DNA of 64,000 nt from Verrucomicrobiaceae bacterium (GTDB taxonomy: Bacteria; Verrucomicrobiota; Verrucomicrobiia; Verrucomicrobiales; Akkermansiaceae): NCBI GenBank assembly GCA_027487435.1, contig JAIYDP010000224.1, positions 1-64,000 of the forward strand. Direction: 5' to 3'. A program made the position numbers and the translations under genes. The notes below the pieces were generated by a model. The model worked only from the letters and a program-made list of their open reading frames with translations. It was not told where the DNA came from and made no database searches. This document shows, piece after piece, positions 7,307 to 48,762 of this stretch. Numbering within the stretch: the stretch's first letter is position 1; each line of letters opens with the position of its first letter.

Positions 7307-10156
7307 CTAGCGACTATTTTCCTGACGTGCGCGTTCTTGAGCTTCGCGCATGGCAGCTTCTTGTTGTTCACGTGCGCGCTCTTGAGCTTCCCGCATGGCG
7401 GATTCACGAGCAGCTTCTTGCTGTTCACGTGCCCGTTCCTGAGCTTCACGCATGGCAGCTTCGCGAGCGGCTTCTTGTTGTTCGCGTGCCCGCTCTTGAG
7501 CTTCCCGCATGGCGGCTTCTTGTTGTTCACGTGCGCGCTCTTGAGCTTCCCGCATGGCAGCTTCGCGAGCAGCTTCTTGTTGTTCGCGTGCGCGTTCCTG
7601 GGCTTCGCGCATCGCAGCTTCTTGTGCTTCGCGAGCGGCTTGCTGTTGCTCACGCATGGCGGCTTCTTGCGCTTCGCGAGCAGCTTCTTGTTGTTCGCGC
7701 ATAGCAGCTTCCTGTTGGTTCTTCATCGAAGCTTCTTGTGCTTCGCGAGCGGCTTCCTCTTGCTGACGCATAGCAGCTTCTTGCGCTTCGCGAGCAGCTT
7801 CCTGTTGTTCGCGCATAGCAGCTTCCTGTTGGTTCTTCATCGCAGCTTCTTGCGCTTCGCGAGCGGCTTGCTGTTGCTCACGCATGGCGGCTTCTTGCGC
7901 TTCGCGAGCGGCTTCTTGTTGTTCGCGCATAGCAGCTTCCTGTTGGTTCTTCATCGCAGCTTCTTGTGCTTCGCGAGCGACTTCCTGTTGCTCACGCATG
8001 GCAGCTTCTTGTTGGTTCTTCATCGTAGCTTCTTGCGCTTCGCGAGTAGCTTCTTGTTGTTCGCGCATCGCAGCTTCCTCTTGATTCTTCAAAGCGGCTT
8101 CTTTTTGAGCTATCTCGGCCTGCTCTTGTGCAAGGGCAGCTTCCTGCTGTTCTTTGATGATGCTCTCTTGTTGCTCACGCATAGCGGCCTGTTCTTTCGC
8201 ATCGTTTTCGGCTTGTCGTTGCTTAAGCAGTTCTTGCTCTTTGGCGAGTTCCATTTGCGCTTTCTGTTGCTCTTTGGCAGCTTCGATTGAGCGCTCCTGT
8301 GCTTGTGCCATGTTCTGACGAGCTTTTTCTTCTTCGAGTGCTTGTTGTTCTTTTTGTAATCGAGCGCGTTCCATTGCTACTTCGCCTAATTCCCTTTCAC
8401 GCTCTTGCTGCTGACGCAGCGCGCGTGCTTGATTTTCTTTCATGCGCTCGGTAATAGGATCATTTCCCGTCTGGGGTTGGCGGTTTTCTTGTTCACGATG
8501 CATACCACGCAGTCCATCTGTCGATCCGGTTCGATTGCCTCCTAATGTTCCTCCTAGGGCTGCTCCTTGAAGAGATCCTTTCTGATTGCTCGATGGATTG
8601 CCATTGTCGGACGGAGTGCTGGGCGATGAATCTGCTTCGACCGGTTGTTTTTCGATTGATGCCGTTTCCGCAACGTTTCTTGTTTGTGGTGGGTTCGCAT
8701 CTTTAGCAATTCCGCGAAGGCCTGTGTCCATGGTAGGAACCGTAGCTAGTGGGGTATCACGGGTGGCAGGTGTAGCATTTTCTTTGCTTGCTTGTGTTGC
8801 GGTGAGTTCATCCCGGCGGAGGGCGATTTGTTCACGCAAGCCAATACGACGAATGACTTTTTGCGAGATTTCTTCATTGACGACTTTGTTTGCAGTAAAG
8901 CGCTCGGCATCGCGGCTGCGCTCAAATCTTGTGAATAGCGAGTTGTCAAACGTCTTGCTACGCAACGGTTGATCATTGTCGATGCGCTGAGCGATGCGCG
9001 TTGGACGCAAGGCGGAATTCCACGGGGCGTTGACATTTGGTGCATGGAAACGCAAGCGATCACCGCGTTGGTTGACGTAGCCGATCGGATCAAGGCCGTT
9101 CGGTAATGTGCTATCCCAGTCACAGCGGTAGCGGGGAATGGTCTGGCCAATCCAGCGGCAAGCGACATCGTAATCGACAGCACGGCAAATGATGCGGTTG
9201 CGATCAAAAGTGTATCCGCCACAATAATTGGTCTGTGAATAGAAGCGTAGGCAGTCGCTGGGAGAGCTTACGTAGCGAGAGATGCTAGCTCCGAAATGTT
9301 TTGTGCTGACAAAACAGTAGGCACGTTCACTAATGCCGCAAGAATCGCCGTATTGGGTGGACCAGTCGTTATTGTTCCAGTGTAAGGTTTCTGGAGGAAG
9401 AGGAGCCCAGCCGATGTGCGAAGAATTGTTGCGCCAGCATACCCAGGCAGGTGCCCACGTGGAGCCTGGAACCCAGCACCAACCTGTTTGATTGAGCAAA
9501 ACCCATCTGCCATAGTGAAAGGTAGCCCAGCCGAATGGCTCGGAGGAAACCCAAGTCCAGCCGCAATCACTATACACCCAATGACCTTGGGTGTAGGGTC
9601 GCCAGTTGTTTTGATTCCAACAATTGGGCCGCCAAACGTAGCCGTATTGTGGCACGGAGAACCATGAGCCGTGTGGGCTGAGACGATTGTGGAAGACGCT
9701 GTAGTCGTAATCGACGTTGGTGCTGATGGGTGGTTGCTGCGGCAAAATGGCGTTGCCTTGGGACAAAGGTTGCCGCGGTTGCGCTGCGATTCTTGCTTTC
9801 TCTTGGGCAATTTTTTTGTCGATCTCTGCCAAGCGTGCATTCTCCTCTGCGGTGCGTGTCCGCTCCTCGGCCAACCGTTTGCGCTCTTTTTCGAGGGCAA
9901 GTAATTCGTCGTTGAGTTGTTGGCTGCGACTCTCCAAGTCCTCGCGCTGTTGGCGTAGTTGTTCCTTTTCAAGGGCGAGGCGCTCGATTTCGATTTCGTG
10001 CTGGAGACGTTTTTCTTCTCGTTCGAGAGTTCGCAGTTCTTCGTCGCGCTTTGCGGCATCATCTGCTGCAGAAGGTGCTGCGGTGGTGGGTGTTGATTTG
10101 CGGCACGCGGGAAGAAGGAGCAGGGATAGTCCAAAAAATATGGGTAATGATTTCAT
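7307..10156 (-). CDS. Large lipoprotein with aromatic-repeat domain and highly repetitive coiled coil
   Basis: 949 residues from ATG 10156. The N-terminus MKSLPIFFGLSLLLLPAC is a lipoprotein signal with the lipid-accepting Cys at residue 18. Residues ~30-115 are a Glu/Gln/Arg coiled coil. Residues ~125-330 are Trp/Tyr-rich (YVWRPN, HWVYSDCGWTWVS, GWATFHYGRWV, GWCWVPG, IGWAPLPP), matching the DUF6600 type. A Ser/Thr/Pro linker follows, then from ~residue 570 to the end a near-continuous Ala/Glu/Gln/Arg helix built of units such as REQQEAAREAQEAAM. It is probably an outer-membrane or periplasmic anchored structural protein; no enzymatic motif is seen. Single-gene unit. Confidence 0.8.
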   Translation of the reverse strand: MKSLPIFFGLSLLLLPACRKSTPTTAAPSAADDAAKRDEELRTLEREEKRLQHEIEIERLALEKEQLRQQREDLESRSQQLNDELLALEKERKRLAEERTRTAEENARLAEIDKKIAQEKARIAAQPRQPLSQGNAILPQQPPISTNVDYDYSVFHNRLSPHGSWFSVPQYGYVWRPNCWNQNNWRPYTQGHWVYSDCGWTWVSSEPFGWATFHYGRWVLLNQTGWCWVPGSTWAPAWVCWRNNSSHIGWAPLPPETLHWNNNDWSTQYGDSCGISERAYCFVSTKHFGASISRYVSSPSDCLRFYSQTNYCGGYTFDRNRIICRAVDYDVACRWIGQTIPRYRCDWDSTLPNGLDPIGYVNQRGDRLRFHAPNVNAPWNSALRPTRIAQRIDNDQPLRSKTFDNSLFTRFERSRDAERFTANKVVNEEISQKVIRRIGLREQIALRRDELTATQASKENATPATRDTPLATVPTMDTGLRGIAKDANPPQTRNVAETASIEKQPVEADSSPSTPSDNGNPSSNQKGSLQGAALGGTLGGNRTGSTDGLRGMHREQENRQPQTGNDPITERMKENQARALRQQQERERELGEVAMERARLQKEQQALEEEKARQNMAQAQERSIEAAKEQQKAQMELAKEQELLKQRQAENDAKEQAAMREQQESIIKEQQEAALAQEQAEIAQKEAALKNQEEAAMREQQEATREAQEATMKNQQEAAMREQQEVAREAQEAAMKNQQEAAMREQQEAAREAQEAAMREQQQAAREAQEAAMKNQQEAAMREQQEAAREAQEAAMRQQEEAAREAQEASMKNQQEAAMREQQEAAREAQEAAMREQQQAAREAQEAAMREAQERAREQQEAAREAAMREAQERAREQQEAAMREAQERAREQQEAAREAAMREAQERAREQQEAARESAMREAQERAREQQEAAMREAQERARQENSR
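7320..8100 (-). repeat. Intragenic tandem repeats encoding coiled coil
   Basis: Degenerate tandem copies of short units (encoding mixes of AAMREQQE, AAREAQE and AAMKNQQE) fill the 3' end of the lipoprotein gene. Unit lengths are multiples of three, so copy-number change would lengthen or shorten the helix without frameshift. The antisense frames also stay open for this reason and are not taken as genes. Confidence 0.85.
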
Positions 10157-11125: not shown

Positions 11126-12322
11126 TTAGATTTTTGTTAGAGCTGCGACTCCAGGAAGTTCTTGCCCTTCGAGAAGTTCCAAAGATGCTCCGCCGCCCGT
11201 GGAAATGAAGTCCATTTGATCCTCTAAATGGAACTTGGTCACCGCGGTTACGCTATCGCCTCCACCGACGATGGAGAGTGCATTTGAGTCTGCAACAGCT
11301 TGCGCAATGGCGCGCGTGCCTTCTGCAAACGAGTCAATTTCGAAAACTCCCATCGGGCCATTCCAAAGAATGGTGCCTGCGGTGGAAATCTCTTTGGCAA
11401 AATCAGCAATGGCTACATCGCCGATATCGATTCCCTCCCAGTCGTCAGGAATTTCTCCGCCATCGGCATAAGGAGCGATGACCTTGGTTTCGGCTCCATT
11501 TTTGAATTCTTGGGTAATGCGAGTGTCTGCGGGAAGGAGGAAACGAATGCCTTTGCGCTCCGCATTCGCAAGGATCTCCAGAGCAAGTTCCAGTTTGTCG
11601 TTTTCGACGAGTGACTTGCCGACTTTGTATCCCTGCGCTTTGCGGAAGGTGTACGCCATGGCACCACCGATGATGAACGTGTCAGCTTTGGCCATCAGGG
11701 CATTGATGACTTGGATTTTGTCAGAAACTTTTGCACCGCCCATGATGACGACGAATGGACGAGCCGCTTGCTCAAGTTTGTCGACAAGGTATTCGAGTTC
11801 ACGTGCCATAAGAAAACCCATGGCGCTTTGTTTTACGAAATGGGTCACACCTTCTGTGGAGGCATGCGCGCGGTGCGCAGTGCCAAAGGCATCGTTGACA
11901 AAAATCTCGGCGTTGCCCGCGAGCTTACGTGCGAAGTCTTGATCATTGGCTTCCTCTTCTTTGTAAAATCGGGTGTTTTCAAGCAATAGAACTTGCCCTG
12001 GTTGTAGAGCCGCACGCAGCGCATCCACTTCTGCACCAATGCAATCCGGTGCGAGAGCTACGGGCTGACCGAGCAGTTCGCCGAGGCGAGTCGCTACTGG
12101 CTGCAAGGAAAACTCGGCTGATGCACCATCCTTCGGGCGTCCGAGGTGCGAGCAAAGAACCAACTTGGCCCCGCCTTCTACGAGATGCTTGATGGAGGGC
12201 ACAGCAGCTGTAATGCGAGCATCATTGGTAATTGCTCCATTTTTTAATGGAACGTTAAAATCTACGCGCATCAGCAGTTCTTTGCTATGGACATCTAAAT
12301 TCTGAATCGAGAGTTTCGCCAT
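11126..12322 (-). CDS. pgk: Phosphoglycerate kinase
   Basis: 398 residues from ATG 12322 (MAKLSIQNLD); the frame is open another 62 codons upstream, but that stretch lies in a dispersed repeat and is not conserved pgk sequence. It transfers phosphate from 1,3-bisphosphoglycerate to ADP. Landmarks are RVDFNVPL, LCSHLGRPK, LLENTRFY, VNDAFGTAHRAHAS, the hinge region, WNGPMGVFE and GGGDSVTAV. First gene of the pgk-tpiA operon, transcribed away from the divergent thioredoxin-like gene. Confidence 0.97.
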   Translation of the reverse strand: MAKLSIQNLDVHSKELLMRVDFNVPLKNGAITNDARITAAVPSIKHLVEGGAKLVLCSHLGRPKDGASAEFSLQPVATRLGELLGQPVALAPDCIGAEVDALRAALQPGQVLLLENTRFYKEEEANDQDFARKLAGNAEIFVNDAFGTAHRAHASTEGVTHFVKQSAMGFLMARELEYLVDKLEQAARPFVVIMGGAKVSDKIQVINALMAKADTFIIGGAMAYTFRKAQGYKVGKSLVENDKLELALEILANAERKGIRFLLPADTRITQEFKNGAETKVIAPYADGGEIPDDWEGIDIGDVAIADFAKEISTAGTILWNGPMGVFEIDSFAEGTRAIAQAVADSNALSIVGGGDSVTAVTKFHLEDQMDFISTGGGASLELLEGQELPGVAALTKI

Positions 12323-12380: not shown

Positions 12381-12556
12381 TTAAACCCGAGATCCGAAGT
12401 ATAAAGCCGCGATTCGCAGCCATCATTTGACTTGCAAAGCATTTCAGACCTTGTGCTTGTATTTTTAGAATGCAGAACTCTAAGGCCATGAAAGGCTTTG
12501 CACATCAAATCTTGAGAGTGAGTCTCTGGCGTTTCCCTTCAGGATCTCATGGTAAA
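12381..12556. repeat. Palindromic MITE-like element, copy A
   Basis: About 175 bases that align along their length with 47604-47776. The left end TTAAACCCGAGATCCGAA matches the reverse complement of the right end of copy B; A's own right end is degraded (ggatctcatggtaaa). The inner arms GCAAAGC and GCTTTGC pair with each other, where copy B has GCAAGGC and GCCTTGC, a compensatory change. The element lies in the divergent gap between pgk and the thioredoxin-like gene, so it may carry or affect their promoters. The rest of this gap shows no gene. Confidence 0.75.
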
Positions 12557-12619: not shown

Positions 12620-13609
12620 ATGAAATTCCTATTACCTTTGCTTAGTTCGGTCATCGTCTGGAGTTCCAGCAGCCTTTACGCGGCTGAGGGTTGGTTGACG
12701 AATTTTGAAACAGCCAAAAAAGATGCTGTCCGCGAAAAAAAAGAGCTATTGCTTGAGTTCACGGGCTCGGATTGGTGCATGCCTTGCAAAATACTCCATG
12801 ATACGATCCTGAGCAAAGATGTTTTCCTCGAATACGCGAAGAGTCATTTTGTCTTGGTGGAATTGGATTACCCAACGAAAAAAAAGCTTGATGACGAACT
12901 TGTTAAGCAAAATGCAGCTTTGCAGCAGGAAATGAAAGTTTTTTCCTATCCGACCGTCCTACTGTGCGATGAATCGGGCAAACCTTACGCATCGAGTCCA
13001 TTTCGTCGTCAAACTCCCGAGGATTATATCGTCAAGCTTGAAGAATTACGCAAGGTGAGAACAGCTCGCGACACAGCATTTTCCGCCGCAGTGCAAGCGA
13101 ACGGACTTGAAAAGGCTCAACTGCTTGTCAAGGGCTTGCAATGCATGGATTCCAAAATTGTTGAGGCGAATTATTCCGATGTCTTACAACAAATTGCTCA
13201 ACTCGATCCGGAACATACCATCACTTATGCCAAAGAACGCTTGGCTGAAGCGGCAAAGATGAAACAACAAGCGGCGACTGGTCTGCTGCTTGGCACTTTC
13301 ATGAAAGAGACCTTAGATCCCTTGGTCAATCAGGGAAATATCGCCGGTGCGGAGCAGGCCATCGATACCTTCCAAGAAAAAAACCCTACCATCATGACTG
13401 CTGCTACAGCGAAAAGCATGAAATTCAGAACGGTTTTGTCAGTTCACATTCGTGCGTTAGATGAAGAGGCTGCGATGGCTCACATTAAGAAATTTGTCGA
13501 AGCTAACCCCAATGATGCAGCCGCAAAGAATCCAGAGGGGCTCATGGCTATGGCCAAGAAGTTGATACAGAAAAAGAAGGATGATGCGAATAAAGAAGCT
13601 GCGGAATGA
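12620..13609 (+). CDS. Exported thioredoxin-fold protein
   Basis: 329 residues. An N-terminal signal peptide (MKFLLPLLSSVIVW... cut near YAAEG) precedes a thioredoxin-like domain (residues ~25-150) with FTGSDWCMPCK as active site and the cis-Pro loop FSYPTVLL. The remaining ~170 residues are helical with no recognised motif. It is likely a periplasmic thiol-disulfide or thiol-stress protein. It is transcribed divergently from pgk, with repeat copy A between them. The redox partner is unknown and no Dsb gene is adjacent. Confidence 0.85.
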   Translation: MKFLLPLLSSVIVWSSSSLYAAEGWLTNFETAKKDAVREKKELLLEFTGSDWCMPCKILHDTILSKDVFLEYAKSHFVLVELDYPTKKKLDDELVKQNAALQQEMKVFSYPTVLLCDESGKPYASSPFRRQTPEDYIVKLEELRKVRTARDTAFSAAVQANGLEKAQLLVKGLQCMDSKIVEANYSDVLQQIAQLDPEHTITYAKERLAEAAKMKQQAATGLLLGTFMKETLDPLVNQGNIAGAEQAIDTFQEKNPTIMTAATAKSMKFRTVLSVHIRALDEEAAMAHIKKFVEANPNDAAAKNPEGLMAMAKKLIQKKKDDANKEAAE

Positions 13610-21163: not shown

Positions 21164-21481
21164 TTAGGGCTTCTTGGCAGGAGCCTTTTTCGCAGGAGCA
21201 GCCTTCTTGGCTGGCGCCGCTTTCTTGGCAGGAGCAGCCTTTTTGGCTGGTGCAGGAGCAGCTTTTTTGGCTGGTGCTGCCTTCTTGGCAGGAGCGGCCT
21301 TTTTGGCTGGTGCGGGTGCAGCCTTCTTGGCAGGCGCAGCTTTTTTCGCTGGGGCTTTGACTGCTACTGCTTTTTTAGCAGGGGCAGCTTTCTTGGCAGG
21401 AGCAGCTTTTTTGGCTGGCGCTGCCTTCTTGGCAGGAGCGGCCTTTTTGGCTGGTGCTTTTGCGGCTTTTTTTGCGGGCAT
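21164..21481 (-). CDS. Histone H1-like Lys/Ala/Pro-rich DNA-binding protein
   Basis: 105 residues made almost entirely of PAKKAA-type repeats after MPAKKAAKAP. Such strongly basic, disordered sequences resemble the C-terminal tail of eukaryotic histone H1 and bacterial proteins such as HctB or AlgP, which bind and compact DNA. There is no folded domain. The gene is internally repetitive at DNA level, so the opposite strand also stays open as a shadow. Its upstream region (21482-21856) contains an 11-bp inverted repeat. Confidence 0.85.
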   Translation of the reverse strand: MPAKKAAKAPAKKAAPAKKAAPAKKAAPAKKAAPAKKAVAVKAPAKKAAPAKKAAPAPAKKAAPAKKAAPAKKAAPAPAKKAAPAKKAAPAKKAAPAKKAPAKKP

Positions 21482-21630
21482 AGTATTTGTTTTCTATTTT
21501 TGTTGTTTTGTTTTTTCTTCTGCTAATAGCAGCAGAGGAAAGATGGTTCCTAGGTCGGGAAAATGGATCGGAGTCGTGGACTCCTTGATGGGTTTGCAGA
21601 AGCGTTAAGAATGATCGTCATCTCTAACGA

Positions 21631-42686: not shown

Positions 42687-42801
42687 GGTGGTGGGATGTT
42701 TAAGGTGAGATGTTTAACATTGGGATTTTGCTGAACGATGTAAACTAGGATTTCCCATCGGGGTATGTGAAGCAAAAAAACTTGGGAAAATTGGTATAAG
42801 A

Positions 42802-43070
42802 GTGTCTGTGGGGGTGGATTCTATACAGAAATGGCATCTGAGCACGTGCGCAGGGGGCGATTCTACGCAGAAATGGCAATTGCGCACGTGCGCAGGGGGC
42901 GATTCTGCGCAGAAATGGCAATTGTGCACGTGCGCAGGGGGTGATTCTGCGCAGAAATGGCAATTGTGCACGTGCGCAGGGGGTGATTCTACGCAGAAAT
43001 GGCAATTGCGCACGTGCGCAGGGGGTGATTCTGCACAGAAATGGCAATTGCGCACGTGCGCAGGGGGCAT
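42802..43070. repeat. 42-bp tandem repeat array with a 14-bp palindrome
   Basis: About six and a half copies of a 42-base unit run head to tail. Most copies contain the perfect palindrome TGCGCACGTGCGCA followed by GGGGG and an AGAAATGGCAATTG segment; outer copies are more degenerate. Copies differ only at scattered positions, so there are no CRISPR-like spacers. The period is a multiple of three, which leaves several frames open on both strands; these look like shadows rather than genes. It lies between the GC-rich hypothetical pair and the restriction-modification operon. Confidence 0.9.
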
Positions 43071-43149
43071 ATTTTTCCAAATAGGGTGTCTGCGCACGCC
43101 CCTCCTATGCGCGGCGGTAAATCTGCGTTTCCCGATGGCTCGAGGGAAT

Positions 43150-43493: not shown

Positions 43494-45122
43494 ATGGCGC
43501 GGCAGGAATATAGGGATCTTAGCAAGGAGCAGTTGATCGCACTGCTGGAGGCGCGGGATCGCAGGAAATTGGGGCTGGTGTGGGAGCGGGATGCCATCGA
43601 GCAAGATCTGGCGCTCAATGCGGATTTTGTGGCGTTGGAGGAAATGCCAGAACTCTCGGTGGGCGAGGGTGTGCGGGAAAACTTCATCATCGAGGGCGAT
43701 AACTTCGATGCGCTGCGGGCGCTGCGCATTGCCTACGCCGGGCAGGTGAAGTGCATTTACATTGATCCGCCCTACAATACGGGAAACCGCGACTTCGTTT
43801 ATAATGACCGCTTTGTGGACAAGGAGCATGCGTGGCGGCATTCGCTGTGGATCGAGTTCATGTTCCAACGCCTCACCCTAGCCCGCGATCTGCTGGCGCA
43901 GGATGGCGCGATTTTTGTTTCCATCGATGATAACGAGATGTTCCACCTCGGCATGTTGATGAATGAGGTGTTTGGGGAGAGTAATTTTGTGGCGAATGTG
44001 ATTTGGCAGAAACGAACATCACCGGATGCGCGATTGCGTTTGGGCGCAGGCCATGAATACATCCTAGCTTATGCTAACAGCAAAGAGAGCCTTGGCCTTA
44101 ATAAAGCCCCATTAGACGAAAAAGACCGCATAAAATACTCTAATATTGACAATGATGCGCGTGGAGTATGGACATCAGCAGATTTTACAGCACAAGGATT
44201 TCGTCCCAATCAAATGTATTCTATATTAACCCCTTCTGGTCGCGTATTGTCACCACCTCGTGGCAGATGTTGGGCTAAGTTAGAGACGGAATTTCAGAAA
44301 TTACGGGATGATGGTCGGATATGGTTTGGAGCTGATGGTTCAGCACGTCCTCGTGTTAAAAATTTTTTGAGTGAAACAGAGGGGCGTAGTTCTTGGACAT
44401 GGTGGAGTAACAATGAAGTTGGTCACAGTCAGGAAGCGAAAAAAGAACTTCTCGCAGTGATGTCAGATACTGATGAGTCTCCGCTTGCACATACCCCCAA
44501 ACCCGTCCGCCTTATCGAGCGCATCCTACAAATCGCCACGAATCCCGGAGATTTGATTTTAGACTTTTTTGCTGGCTCGGGCACGACGGGGCATGCGGTC
44601 TTAAAGATGAATGCCGCAGCACCTACCGAGGCACCGCGACGTTTCATCCTCGTCTCGAATAGCGAGGCGAATGCGGAGGAGCCGGAGAAAAATCTTTGCC
44701 GCGATGTGTGCCGCCAGCGAGTGGCAAATGTGATCGCGGGCTATGGCACTACGCCAGGCAGCGGCGGGAGTTTTGCCTATCTGCGCACGCGGCGCATCCC
44801 GCAGCCGCGGGTGGTGCGGCGCATGGAGCACACGCAGGTGTGGATTTTTTTGCAGTTGATGCACTTTGCCAATCTGGGGGCGAGCGAAGTACTCGCCTCG
44901 GGCCGCTTGTTCACGCGGGCAGGAGCGGAGCATGCGGTGTTTTACCCCACGGCACTGACAGAAGCCATCGTGCAACGGCTAGAAAAAGAATGCGCTAAGG
45001 CGGCGAACGTGACGATTTACACCTGGCAGCCAGAAGTGCTGGCCTCACGGCTGGATGCTCCCGGCACGGCGATTTTACCCATTCCTCAAACCATCATCGA
45101 ACGATTCGGACTACGGCCATGA
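43494..45122 (+). CDS. Type III restriction-modification DNA methyltransferase (Mod)
   Basis: 542 residues. Beta-class amino-methyltransferase: the catalytic DPPYNTGNRDF (motif IV, residue ~87) precedes the AdoMet site LDFFAGSGTTGHAVLKM (motif I, residue ~360). It methylates adenine or cytosine in the target and also provides target recognition for the Res partner. Residues ~165-325 (43980-44480) form the target-recognition region and are encoded by markedly AT-richer DNA than both flanks. The stop overlaps the res ATG (ATGA at 45119), so the genes are translationally coupled. Target sequence not predictable. Confidence 0.92.
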   Translation: MARQEYRDLSKEQLIALLEARDRRKLGLVWERDAIEQDLALNADFVALEEMPELSVGEGVRENFIIEGDNFDALRALRIAYAGQVKCIYIDPPYNTGNRDFVYNDRFVDKEHAWRHSLWIEFMFQRLTLARDLLAQDGAIFVSIDDNEMFHLGMLMNEVFGESNFVANVIWQKRTSPDARLRLGAGHEYILAYANSKESLGLNKAPLDEKDRIKYSNIDNDARGVWTSADFTAQGFRPNQMYSILTPSGRVLSPPRGRCWAKLETEFQKLRDDGRIWFGADGSARPRVKNFLSETEGRSSWTWWSNNEVGHSQEAKKELLAVMSDTDESPLAHTPKPVRLIERILQIATNPGDLILDFFAGSGTTGHAVLKMNAAAPTEAPRRFILVSNSEANAEEPEKNLCRDVCRQRVANVIAGYGTTPGSGGSFAYLRTRRIPQPRVVRRMEHTQVWIFLQLMHFANLGASEVLASGRLFTRAGAEHAVFYPTALTEAIVQRLEKECAKAANVTIYTWQPEVLASRLDAPGTAILPIPQTIIERFGLRP

Positions 45123-47584
45123 TCACACCCAAGCCCTTCCAAGATACCTACATCGGCAACATTCTGGCGCTGTTCCGCGCGGCGAAGAGTCAGTACGATG
45201 AAGTCACCGCTGCGGCGTATGACAGGCAAAAGGTCTTTGCCTACAATGGCGCGTGTTTGCTGAAAGCACCGACGGGAGCGGGCAAGACGCTGATCGCCGG
45301 GATGGTGGCAGAGAAGTTTGCTAGCGAAGAGCAAGTGGTGTGGCTATGGTTCGCGCCATTTAAGGGGCTGGTGGGCCAAGCGGCGATGTCCTTGCGAGAT
45401 CACCACCCTGGCCTGCGGGTGAGAGAACTGGCTACAGATCGCAAAGCGGCTGGCACGCGGTCGGGCGATACCTTTGTGCTAACGTGGGCATCGGTGGTGG
45501 CAAAGACCACGGAAGCGCGGAAAATGCGCACGGATCGGGAGGCATTGATGTCACTGGATTCCATGCTGGAAGATTTGCGCGGGGCAGGGTTTCGCATCGG
45601 CGTGATCATCGATGAAGCGCATCATGGCTTCGGCACCAAAACGCAATCTGTGGAGTTTTTTCACCAAGTATTGCAACCGGATTATGCGTTGATGGTCACG
45701 GCCACGCCGGATGACGCGGATGCAGAGGCATTCATCAAAGCGGCGGGAATCAAGGACTTGCACCGCGTGAGTGTCTCGCGGGAAGAAGCGGTGGCAGCGG
45801 GGTTGGTGAAACAGGGGGTGAAATCCATCGCCTACATTTCGCCGCCGGATCAAGTGACTTTAGCCGACTTCGAGGCAGCGGCACTGACGGATGCTTGTGC
45901 CATGCACGCGCGGCTCAAGCAGGAACTGGTGGCAGCGGGAGTGAATCTCGTGCCGCTGATGATGGTGCAGGTGGGCAAAGAGAAACACGCCATCGATGAA
46001 GCGAAGCGCGGCTTGATGGCAAGAGGCTTCACAGAAAACACCATCATGGTTCACACGGCGGACGAGCCCGATGAAAATTTCCTCTCGATGGCACACGATG
46101 AAGAGAAAGAGGTGCTGATCTTTAAAATGGCAGCCGCGCTAGGCTTCGATGCGCCGCGCGCCTTCTGCATGGTATCCATGCGTGCGGTAAAAGACACTGA
46201 CTTCGGCACGCAATTGATCGGGCGCATCCTGCGGGTGCATCGCCGTCTGCAAGGGCGTGCCTTGCCGGCGATTCTCCAGCACGGCTATCTCTTTCTCGCC
46301 GATCACGATAGCCAAGAAGGTGTGGCGACTGCGGCGAAAAAGATCAACCAATTGCAGAGTCAACTGACGGCGACCAGCCCCTTTGTGATGGTGACAAACG
46401 TGGGTGGCAGCAAGGGGGTGCAAGTGGTGCGGAATCACCAGCCCACGCTATTTCCGGAACATCCTACGCTAACGCAGGACGACGACACGCCTGCTACCTT
46501 CCCTGCGGATGATGAGGAAGATGTGCCCGCAGAACCCCGCGCCACGAGCCAAGGGTTTCTGGATCTGCTGGATGGGCTATCGGTCAATCCCACCCAAGAT
46601 GGCGAGACGGAAAACGCAGCACCGCCTGCGAGTGGCCATCGCTACGACCTCAAGCCCGGTGCGCCACTGCGTTTCATCACGCAGGAATTGCCCGTGGACA
46701 TCATCGAAAAACTGCTGGGCTGCATGGAGCAGCAAGTGGCATTCGATGATGGTGCGATGCTTGCCGCTCTAGCAAAAGACGTGCAAGTCATACGCGTGGA
46801 GCAGAGTCACCTCAGCGAAGGGGAAGAAAAACGTTCGCTGATCCGTGCGAAGATTGATTTAGAAAAAGTAGAGCGGCAAGCGCAGCAGGTACTACTGCGG
46901 CAGCAATACCTCAGCGCGAAGGAGTTGCAAGATCACTTGCTGAAACGGCTGGCGGAGGAATTTACCCGCAATGGAATGTCCGATGTGGCGCAGGACGATG
47001 ACAGGCTGGAAAGTGCGCTGGCATTGATTTTAGTGCGCTACCCTCGGCTCTTGAAGGATGTGGAGAAAAGCTGTGCGGCGCGTTTTTCCATCACACGGGA
47101 AGCAGAACCACTGCCGGGCTATATAGTATCCGCTACGCCATTGAGCGCATCTTTCAAAAACATCTATGGCGTGTATCCTGCGGATCTGAATGAATGGGAG
47201 CGTGAATTTGCGAAGTTGCTGGACAATGATCCAAGTGGCACGGTGCTGTGGTGGCATAGAAATCCGGTGAAGAAGAAATACTCAGTGGCCATCGTGCGCC
47301 CGGATGGTGGGCGTTTTTTCCCTGATTTCATCGAGGGAGTCAAAGACCGGACGGTTGCGAAAGACGGGATTCTGCTCATCGAGACGAAGCATGCGATTGG
47401 TTCGCTGGACTCGAAGATCAAAGCGGTGATCGAGCACAAAGACTATGGCCGGGCCTTGATGATTCACTGGGAGAACTGGCAAGAGAAGACGTTGCGGCGT
47501 GCCATGACCGTGGCCTACGATGCGCAGACGGATACCAACGTCATCCATGCCGTTTTCCGATGTTCAGCAATGGCGACGTATTGA
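45119..47584 (+). CDS. Type III restriction enzyme, Res subunit (helicase-nuclease)
   Basis: 821 residues. Superfamily 2 helicase: LKAPTGAGKTLIAG (Walker A, residue ~48), VIIDEAHHGFG (motif II), MVTATPDD (motif III) and GTQLIGRILRVHRRLQG (motif VI). The C-terminal nuclease has the PD-ExK pattern FFPDFIEG ... ILLIETKHAIG near residue 740-765. With Mod it forms an ATP-dependent restriction complex that cleaves unmodified DNA. A DUF-like acidic linker lies at ~450-500. The frame is intact, so the system is probably active. Confidence 0.9.
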   Translation: MITPKPFQDTYIGNILALFRAAKSQYDEVTAAAYDRQKVFAYNGACLLKAPTGAGKTLIAGMVAEKFASEEQVVWLWFAPFKGLVGQAAMSLRDHHPGLRVRELATDRKAAGTRSGDTFVLTWASVVAKTTEARKMRTDREALMSLDSMLEDLRGAGFRIGVIIDEAHHGFGTKTQSVEFFHQVLQPDYALMVTATPDDADAEAFIKAAGIKDLHRVSVSREEAVAAGLVKQGVKSIAYISPPDQVTLADFEAAALTDACAMHARLKQELVAAGVNLVPLMMVQVGKEKHAIDEAKRGLMARGFTENTIMVHTADEPDENFLSMAHDEEKEVLIFKMAAALGFDAPRAFCMVSMRAVKDTDFGTQLIGRILRVHRRLQGRALPAILQHGYLFLADHDSQEGVATAAKKINQLQSQLTATSPFVMVTNVGGSKGVQVVRNHQPTLFPEHPTLTQDDDTPATFPADDEEDVPAEPRATSQGFLDLLDGLSVNPTQDGETENAAPPASGHRYDLKPGAPLRFITQELPVDIIEKLLGCMEQQVAFDDGAMLAALAKDVQVIRVEQSHLSEGEEKRSLIRAKIDLEKVERQAQQVLLRQQYLSAKELQDHLLKRLAEEFTRNGMSDVAQDDDRLESALALILVRYPRLLKDVEKSCAARFSITREAEPLPGYIVSATPLSASFKNIYGVYPADLNEWEREFAKLLDNDPSGTVLWWHRNPVKKKYSVAIVRPDGGRFFPDFIEGVKDRTVAKDGILLIETKHAIGSLDSKIKAVIEHKDYGRALMIHWENWQEKTLRRAMTVAYDAQTDTNVIHAVFRCSAMATY

Positions 47585-47603
47585 AATGCAGATATAGGCG
47601 GTA

Positions 47604-47776
47604 TTTAACCCGAAATCCGAAGTGTAACGCCGCCATTCGCTGCCATCATTTGCCGCGCAAGGCATTTCAGACCTTGGGGCAGCATCGTTGGATGCAGCCC
47701 ACTGCGGCCATGAAACGCCTTGCACATCGAAGCCTAGCAGCGACTTTCTGCCGCTCTATTTCGGATCTCGGGTTTA
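47604..47776. repeat. Palindromic MITE-like element, copy B
   Basis: 173 bases with terminal inverted repeats: left end TTTAACCCGAAATCCGAA, right end TTCGGATCTCGGGTTTA (its complement). The arms also pair inside (GCAAGGCATTTCA with TGAAACGCCTTGC, and GCAGCATC with GGATGCAGCC), so the whole element can fold as one hairpin. It aligns with copy A at 12381-12556. It sits 20 bases after the res stop codon and before the next ATG at 47899; no gene is seen in the gap. Confidence 0.85.
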
Positions 47777-47898
47777 TCCTGCCATTCTTTGCTTGTCTGG
47801 TAAAAGTGTCATGGATTATCCGGCCTCGCGATGCATCTGAAAAATCCACATTGCCTATTGCAAGAAAAGAGCCTGTAACGCAGAGTTCGCACGACGCT

Positions 47899-48762
47899 AT
47901 GGAAACACATCGAAGAAAACGGGTTATCAAAAGACGCTCATCAAGCAAGTCCAAGCCAAAGACGGAATCGAGATGGAGCGACAAGAAGCAGGATGATGAA
48001 CTCAAAGGCTGGTTGACCATGGGCGCGATCATTGCCGGGCTGGTGGTGGGGTTTGGGGTGGTGTTGTATGTGGTGTTTGGTTCTTCAGGAGACAAGTCCG
48101 AGAAAGATCAGCAGGCTCCACCCACGCCCATCGTGGAAGAAAAATGGCAGGGACCATTGCCCAAGGACGTGGCAGAAAATTTCACGAAAGCCACCACGCA
48201 CGCCGAACGCATCAAATGGGTGCGCGATCCGGATCGCGTATCGGCGCTGATGCTGTCGTTTTTCGACGAGGGTGCAGGAGCGAAGGAGAAAGTCGTGAGC
48301 GTCAAGCGCATGGGTGGTGTGAGCACTGGCAACTTTCTTTACGAGCGATTTCAAGCACGACTGGACAACGAAAAAAGCCGCATGCTCGCTGTAGTGTTTA
48401 CCGATGAAGGTGCGAAAGTCGATTTCGAATGTTACGCACGCCATGGATCCGCCAAGTGGTCGGACTTGTTTGCCGGTGTGGTGAAGGAAGCGAGTGAGGT
48501 AAGGGGCACTCTAGCGAGCGGGTCCTTCTATTTGTTTGAATTTGCCGACGACAAAAAATGGAACAGTTACCTCGTGACCACGCCAGACTACGATGGGCCG
48601 ATTCACGTCTATGCCGCACGCGGCAGCGAAACCGACAAGGCGATGAGCCGAGTAGGTACGGGAGAAGTGCGCGTGATGCTCGCCCTGCGCGCCGTGGGCG
48701 ATAGCTACCAGAAGCGGCAATTTGAAGTGACAAAACTCATCACCACAGGTTGGGTGAAGTAG
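47899..48762 (+). CDS. Uncharacterised membrane-anchored protein
   Basis: 287 residues from ATG 47899. The frame is open upstream to 47560 but runs through the MITE-like element, so the later start is chosen. Residues 1-35 are very basic (RRKRVIKRRSSSKSK), one membrane helix follows (TMGAIIAGLVVGFGVVLYVVF, residues ~40-60), and the remainder is a soluble domain containing WVRDPDRVSALMLSFF and ARHGSAKWSDLFAG. I do not recognise the family. Topology suggests cytoplasmic basic N-terminus and exported domain. Confidence 0.6.
   Translation: METHRRKRVIKRRSSSKSKPKTESRWSDKKQDDELKGWLTMGAIIAGLVVGFGVVLYVVFGSSGDKSEKDQQAPPTPIVEEKWQGPLPKDVAENFTKATTHAERIKWVRDPDRVSALMLSFFDEGAGAKEKVVSVKRMGGVSTGNFLYERFQARLDNEKSRMLAVVFTDEGAKVDFECYARHGSAKWSDLFAGVVKEASEVRGTLASGSFYLFEFADDKKWNSYLVTTPDYDGPIHVYAARGSETDKAMSRVGTGEVRVMLALRAVGDSYQKRQFEVTKLITTGWVK

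Follow-up and report, generated by a model that had tools for sequence, protein, structure and literature searches.

Two segments of the 64,000-nucleotide stretch of DNA analysed here (the window) are, with a probability of about 0.9 judged from sequence comparison, copies of a miniature inverted-repeat transposable element (MITE) that owes its movement to a transposase of IS1380 type. This reading follows from the ends of the element, the duplications that flank it, its copy number and the presence in a congener of a partner with the same ends. The element family is new to these searches; MITEs as a kind are already known. The MITE is a 164-bp element with no gene of its own, the 15-bp ends of which (CCCGARATCCGAAGT) would be recognised by an IS1380-family DDE transposase encoded elsewhere. 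Insertion would occur into a 5-bp A/T-rich NTNAN target, at best TTNAA, with duplication of the target. It seems likely that the mover belongs to the transposase lineage found in the congener G007, and that the donor has been lost from the host genome or is absent from its assembly. The palindrome was presumably inherited from the founder, rather than kept for an RNA.

Copies in the window and the extent of the family

The two segments are real and can be aligned end to end (Table 1). The span assigned to copy A in the preliminary description (12381-12556) corresponds exactly to the element plus both 5-bp flanks. Copy A is diverged, with 72-79% identity to other copies over most of its length, and is located upstream of pgk; a TTGACA box, read by eye, lies between it and the pgk start codon. 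Contrary to the earlier statement that no ORF lies inside, a 400-aa frame (47560-48762) runs through copy B. A Pfam search with this frame gave no match, and the simple gene caller starts a gene near copy B only at 48013.

Table 1. Positions of the two element copies, their ends and flanks, and neighbouring genes in the window
Feature	Position	Strand	Remarks
pgk (phosphoglycerate kinase)	11126..12322	-	host gene; start from simple gene caller
Left 5-bp flank of copy A, TTAAA	12381..12385	.	
MITE copy A	12386..12551	+	between divergent pgk and thioredoxin-like gene
Left end of copy A, CCCGAGATCCGAAGT	12386..12400	+	
Right 5-bp flank of copy A, GTAAA	12552..12556	.	4/5 bases as in left flank
Thioredoxin-like gene	12620..13609	+	host gene, other side of copy A
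ResIII/DEAD helicase ORF	45119..47584	+	ends 24 bp before copy B
Left 5-bp flank of copy B, TTTAA	47604..47608	.	
MITE copy B	47609..47772	+	full length, 164 bp
Left end of copy B, CCCGAAATCCGAAGT	47609..47623	+	identical to left end of IS1380-family element of congener G007
Right end of copy B (reverse strand CCCGAGATCCGAA)	47760..47772	-	
Right 5-bp flank of copy B, TTTAT	47773..47777	.	4/5 bases as in left flank

Other features of the window were observed in passing. The helicase ORF before copy B probably encodes, by inference, the Res subunit of a Type III restriction system; it follows a DNA methylase ORF (43494-47584 for the two), and together they are probably a Type III restriction-modification pair. 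Direct repeat arrays occur at 7326-8149 (spacing 24/45/57 nt) and 42769-43104 (42 nt). Direct repeats in 18-nt steps at 21174-21488 resemble alanine/lysine-rich coding sequence of the kind found in histone H1-like proteins.

The family is multicopy. The host genome, a 9.39-Mb draft in 506 contigs that is 82% complete, contains this palindromic 164-bp element in at least 125 distinct places. A covariance model built from 30 copies gave 147 matches among the best 150 of 3736 candidates; 22 were opposite-strand rows, present because the element is palindromic, and their removal left 125 places as a lower bound. BLAST of the genome with copy B, with the best 40 of 206 candidate places scored, yielded 40 forward rows among those listed, all of them matches; with copy A, the best 40 of 157 candidate places were scored. 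Neither doubt raised at the outset, that only two copies exist and that they fold no better than shuffled sequence, applies. The draft (9.4 Mb at 82% completeness) is more than twice the size of the genomes of nine congeners (2.9-4.4 Mb).

In the fetched stretches, paired ends are most often 164 bp apart (33 pairs, at most 4 mismatches). Shorter forms retain the ends, and some have exact flanking repeats, including forms of 44 bp (GTAAA) and 56 bp (TTTAA) and two of 94 bp (TTAAA and TTTAA). Several candidate size variants were rejected. Apparent elements of 60 and 70 bp are half-elements, a consequence of the likeness between the middle of the element and its ends; an 849-bp composite (C247:29139-29987) is by eye two separate insertions, each at TTGAA; and what lies inside a 980-bp pair of ends in contig C194 is other sequence that looks by eye like an ordinary gene. 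At two loci (L031 and L044), more than 100 bp of a different core, inward of the end, is common to both, and this is perhaps a second MITE type in the genome. A further repeat (CCTAGAATCCGCAGTTGATGTCACC...) lies beside ends at two other places (the flanks of L005 and L060). When copy B was searched as DNA against 38 genomes, including its own, only its own, G005 (one copy, 90% identical to copy B) and G008 (a partial match only) responded; neither G005 nor G008 has a full transposase of the partner lineage.

Ends, target site and a likely IS1380-family partner

The element runs CCCGARATCCGAAGT…TTCGGATYTCGGG. The 5-bp repeats on either side of it derive from an A/T-rich target with the profile N-T-N-A-N (NTNAN), of which TTNAA is the best form. 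The end helix, 91.0% paired across 30 copies, represents terminal inverted repeats. Target-site duplications, for which the preliminary description had asked, were found. Among the 125 places, 121 lay within fetched stretches and 120 had both flanks; exact 5-bp repeats flank the element at 24 of these 120, against 3.2 with mispaired flanks, and exact repeats of 3, 4 or 6-9 bp occur at only 0 or 1 places. An exact duplication is absent at 96 of the 120. Exact 5-bp repeats accompany 19 of 40 less-diverged copies but only 4 of 40 more-diverged copies (Fisher p = 0.0004). For this split, matches at E up to 1e-18 were aligned; they numbered 82, including one from G005, and two were skipped. At the site of copy A, the element is absent in nine of nine congeners as judged by the covariance model at E up to 1, which among the pgk loci of 10 congeneric genomes matched the host genome only. 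These loci were searched whole, with 1500 bases upstream of the Pfam match in eight congeners and 1214 in G002, and the start of the thioredoxin-like gene is visible by eye upstream of pgk in five of the congeneric loci.

A transposase with matching ends, another item on the earlier list of checks, was found in G007. This congener contains a 1539-bp element (L231:2803-4341) that is flanked by TTGAG on both sides, a 5-bp duplication, and encloses a 434-aa ORF that matches the IS1380 profile NF033539 (235.5 bits, cut-off 180) and also PF13701. Its left end is identical to that of copy B at 15 of 15 bp, and its right end matches at 14 of 15, with one base different. The 1539-bp element is likely the autonomous partner. 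A protein 99% identical to its transposase, with one internal stop, is present in G004, and broken copies are present in G124. The host assembly, at 82% completeness, gave no match to the G007 transposase protein, PF13701 or NF033539; G185, with 105 ends, has no IS1380 transposase; and the G007 element gave no match in a plasmid collection.

The 164-bp core and the G007 insertion sequence have only the 15-bp ends in common. Derivation of the core from the partner, which is not required of a MITE, did not appear in this comparison, and origin by internal deletion is therefore not demonstrated. G154 has a 124-bp MITE that carries more of the G007 insertion sequence than does the MITE of the host genome, and the MITEs read in G185 have different cores.

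Among 195 genomes of the taxonomic family, 42 have ends with NTNAN at no more than 1 mismatch, against 2 of 195 for a reversed-pattern control. The host genome has 178 such hits, followed by G185 (105), G154 (21), G002 (16), G146 (14) and G007 (11). NF033539 matches were found in 24 of the 42 genomes having ends and in 29 of the 153 without (p = 3e-6), a test that ignores phylogeny and takes the two surveys as covering the same 195 genomes. Of the 53 genomes in which the profile matched, 44 have no match that exceeds the cut-off. Nine transposases exceed it across the 195 genomes, and such ends (at most 3 mismatches) lie beside only two of them, in G004 and G007; at four of the other seven loci, one side is truncated where the contig stops. 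In G146 and G154 (L236, L248, L249), many of the ends listed are close to where a contig stops (~100-280 bp away), as though the assembly had been interrupted there by multi-copy elements.

Duplications in the IS1380 family range from 4 to 5 bp. The element resembles IS1380 insertion sequences, such as ISEcp1 and the 1539-bp element of G007, in its ends, 5-bp duplication and A/T-rich target, with ISEcp1, a member of the family, described as making 5-bp duplications in the accessible text of PMC2887853; it differs from them in being 164 bp long and non-coding, with an unrelated core. The bacterial MITEs Chunjie of Geobacter and QMITEs of Coxiella, as far as the available portion of PMC10969869 describes them, are likewise short and non-coding with inverted ends, duplications and size variants, and are largely intergenic, but their ends and hosts differ. 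The TTAA target of piggyBac also resembles TTNAA, and a piggyBac tree has been drawn with IS1380 as the outgroup (PMC10813416, seen in part). However, piggyBac is eukaryotic with a 4-bp target, and this is a resemblance only. The searches made found no literature joining IS1380 with TTNAA.

The palindrome and competing explanations

The preliminary description had emphasised a covarying stem and offered three candidates: a non-autonomous transposable element, a REP/BIME-type element moved by a single-strand transposase, and a structured RNA family. Copies A and B do differ by a compensating change, but covariation over the whole family is weak. Selection for the hairpin is unsupported, and descent from a palindromic founder suffices. 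A structured RNA or regulatory hairpin that was spread by transposition and then domesticated under selection, for example as a 3'-end hairpin, is one rival explanation. As single-stranded DNA, copy A folds with z -4.71 (0 of 200 dinucleotide shuffles equally good) and copy B with z -3.23 (1 of 200), and 21 sampled from 82 copies have a median z of -4.73 (range -10.41 to 0.3, mononucleotide shuffles). Elements also lie between convergent genes more often than expected (33 of 98, where such spacers make up 19% of intergenic length; p = 0.0006). On 82 copies, the covariation score of 0.087 exceeds that of shuffles (0.067; 0 of 500 as high) and of all slid versions (0.021-0.040), and 11 doubly changed pairs compare with 5.3 in shuffles (1 of 500 as high). 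However, slid versions give 6-12 doubly changed pairs, a range that includes 11; the structure guided the fitting of the alignment, and related copies inflate the shuffle test. On 30 copies, RNAalifold gave a covariation term of +0.26 and found a double change in 2 of 29 pairs; with the ends added, covariation did not rise above the shuffle control. Conservation varies little along the element (0.84-0.90 per segment), Rfam at gathering score matched one tRNA in the window and nothing at the element, and exact duplications fade as divergence grows. Domestication as an RNA is very unlikely, and the structured RNA candidate is not supported.

Assignment to another DDE family, either IS4/IS1634-like or a Tn3-derived TIME, would also account for 5-bp duplications; Tn3-derived miniature elements make duplications of 5 or 6 bp according to the accessible part of PMC4133298, and the host genome has one PF01609 (IS4-like) gene. 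That locus has no such end at up to 2 mismatches, with single hits at 3-4, and an identical 15-bp end belongs to an IS1380-family element; this assignment is very unlikely too. A REP/BIME-type palindrome moved by a Y1 (TnpA-REP/RAYT) transposase would fit an extragenic palindrome in many copies, and the genome has seven Y1_Tnp matches. It is contradicted both by the fixed 5-bp target duplications, since Y1 elements are not known to duplicate their target, and by the owner of the ends, a DDE element; we consider it the least probable of the explanations, to the point of being scarcely credible. REPs are 20-40 bp long in the accessible text of PMC3733652, and the window element is longer, with a target duplication. 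The non-autonomous transposable element remains as the candidate that agrees with the inverted ends, the 5-bp duplications, the many copies and the transposase-bearing element with matching ends in a congener.

Placement at genes and stop codons

Placement of the element was assessed against the output of a simple gene caller, which gave 828 genes at a coding fraction of 0.67 and for which a gene across an insertion is hard to call. None of 121 elements has a called gene running across it, which given the caller is weak evidence for gene sparing, and 14 of the 121 overlap a called gene at an edge. The flanking genes are in tandem at 56 elements, convergent at 33 and divergent at 9, and 23 have one side without a called gene. 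The stop codon of a called gene lies 0-1 bp from the element edge at 17 of 121 elements, against an expectation of ~2.5%, the share of weighted target sites outside genes that lie 0-2 bp from a stop; the binomial p is 1e-8, and would be 1e-4 at a true rate of 5%. Pfam matches were obtained for 14 of 18 stop-adjacent ORFs, which include a threonyl-type tRNA synthetase, a PurH-type enzyme, a sulfatase, ExbD and an FGGY kinase. One element (C117:2286-2434, L141) lies between convergent genes and abuts both stop codons, and at each of the two C247 insertions TTGAA includes the stop codon of the adjacent gene, an FGGY kinase in one case and an ExbD-like gene in the other. The term "stop codon" was not found in the available portion of the MITE review PMC10969869.

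For every N, TTNAA carries a stop codon, TAA or TGA, on one of its strands. Because of this, landing on stop codons could be guided by the target itself, with the duplication keeping the stop intact, as a built-in safe-site strategy; this proposal is tentative, and we lean somewhat against it. Target preference together with purifying selection would explain the stop-codon peak, and the data do not separate the two.

The results add a well-populated MITE family with IS1380-type ends to a genus within the Akkermansiaceae, which belong to the Verrucomicrobiota, and show that a single set of ends encloses unrelated cores in related genomes. They also provide a testable case of stop-codon insertion in what is otherwise ordinary mobile-element biology. 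If true, the safe-site strategy would let a family without its own transposase reach more than 100 places while sparing genes.
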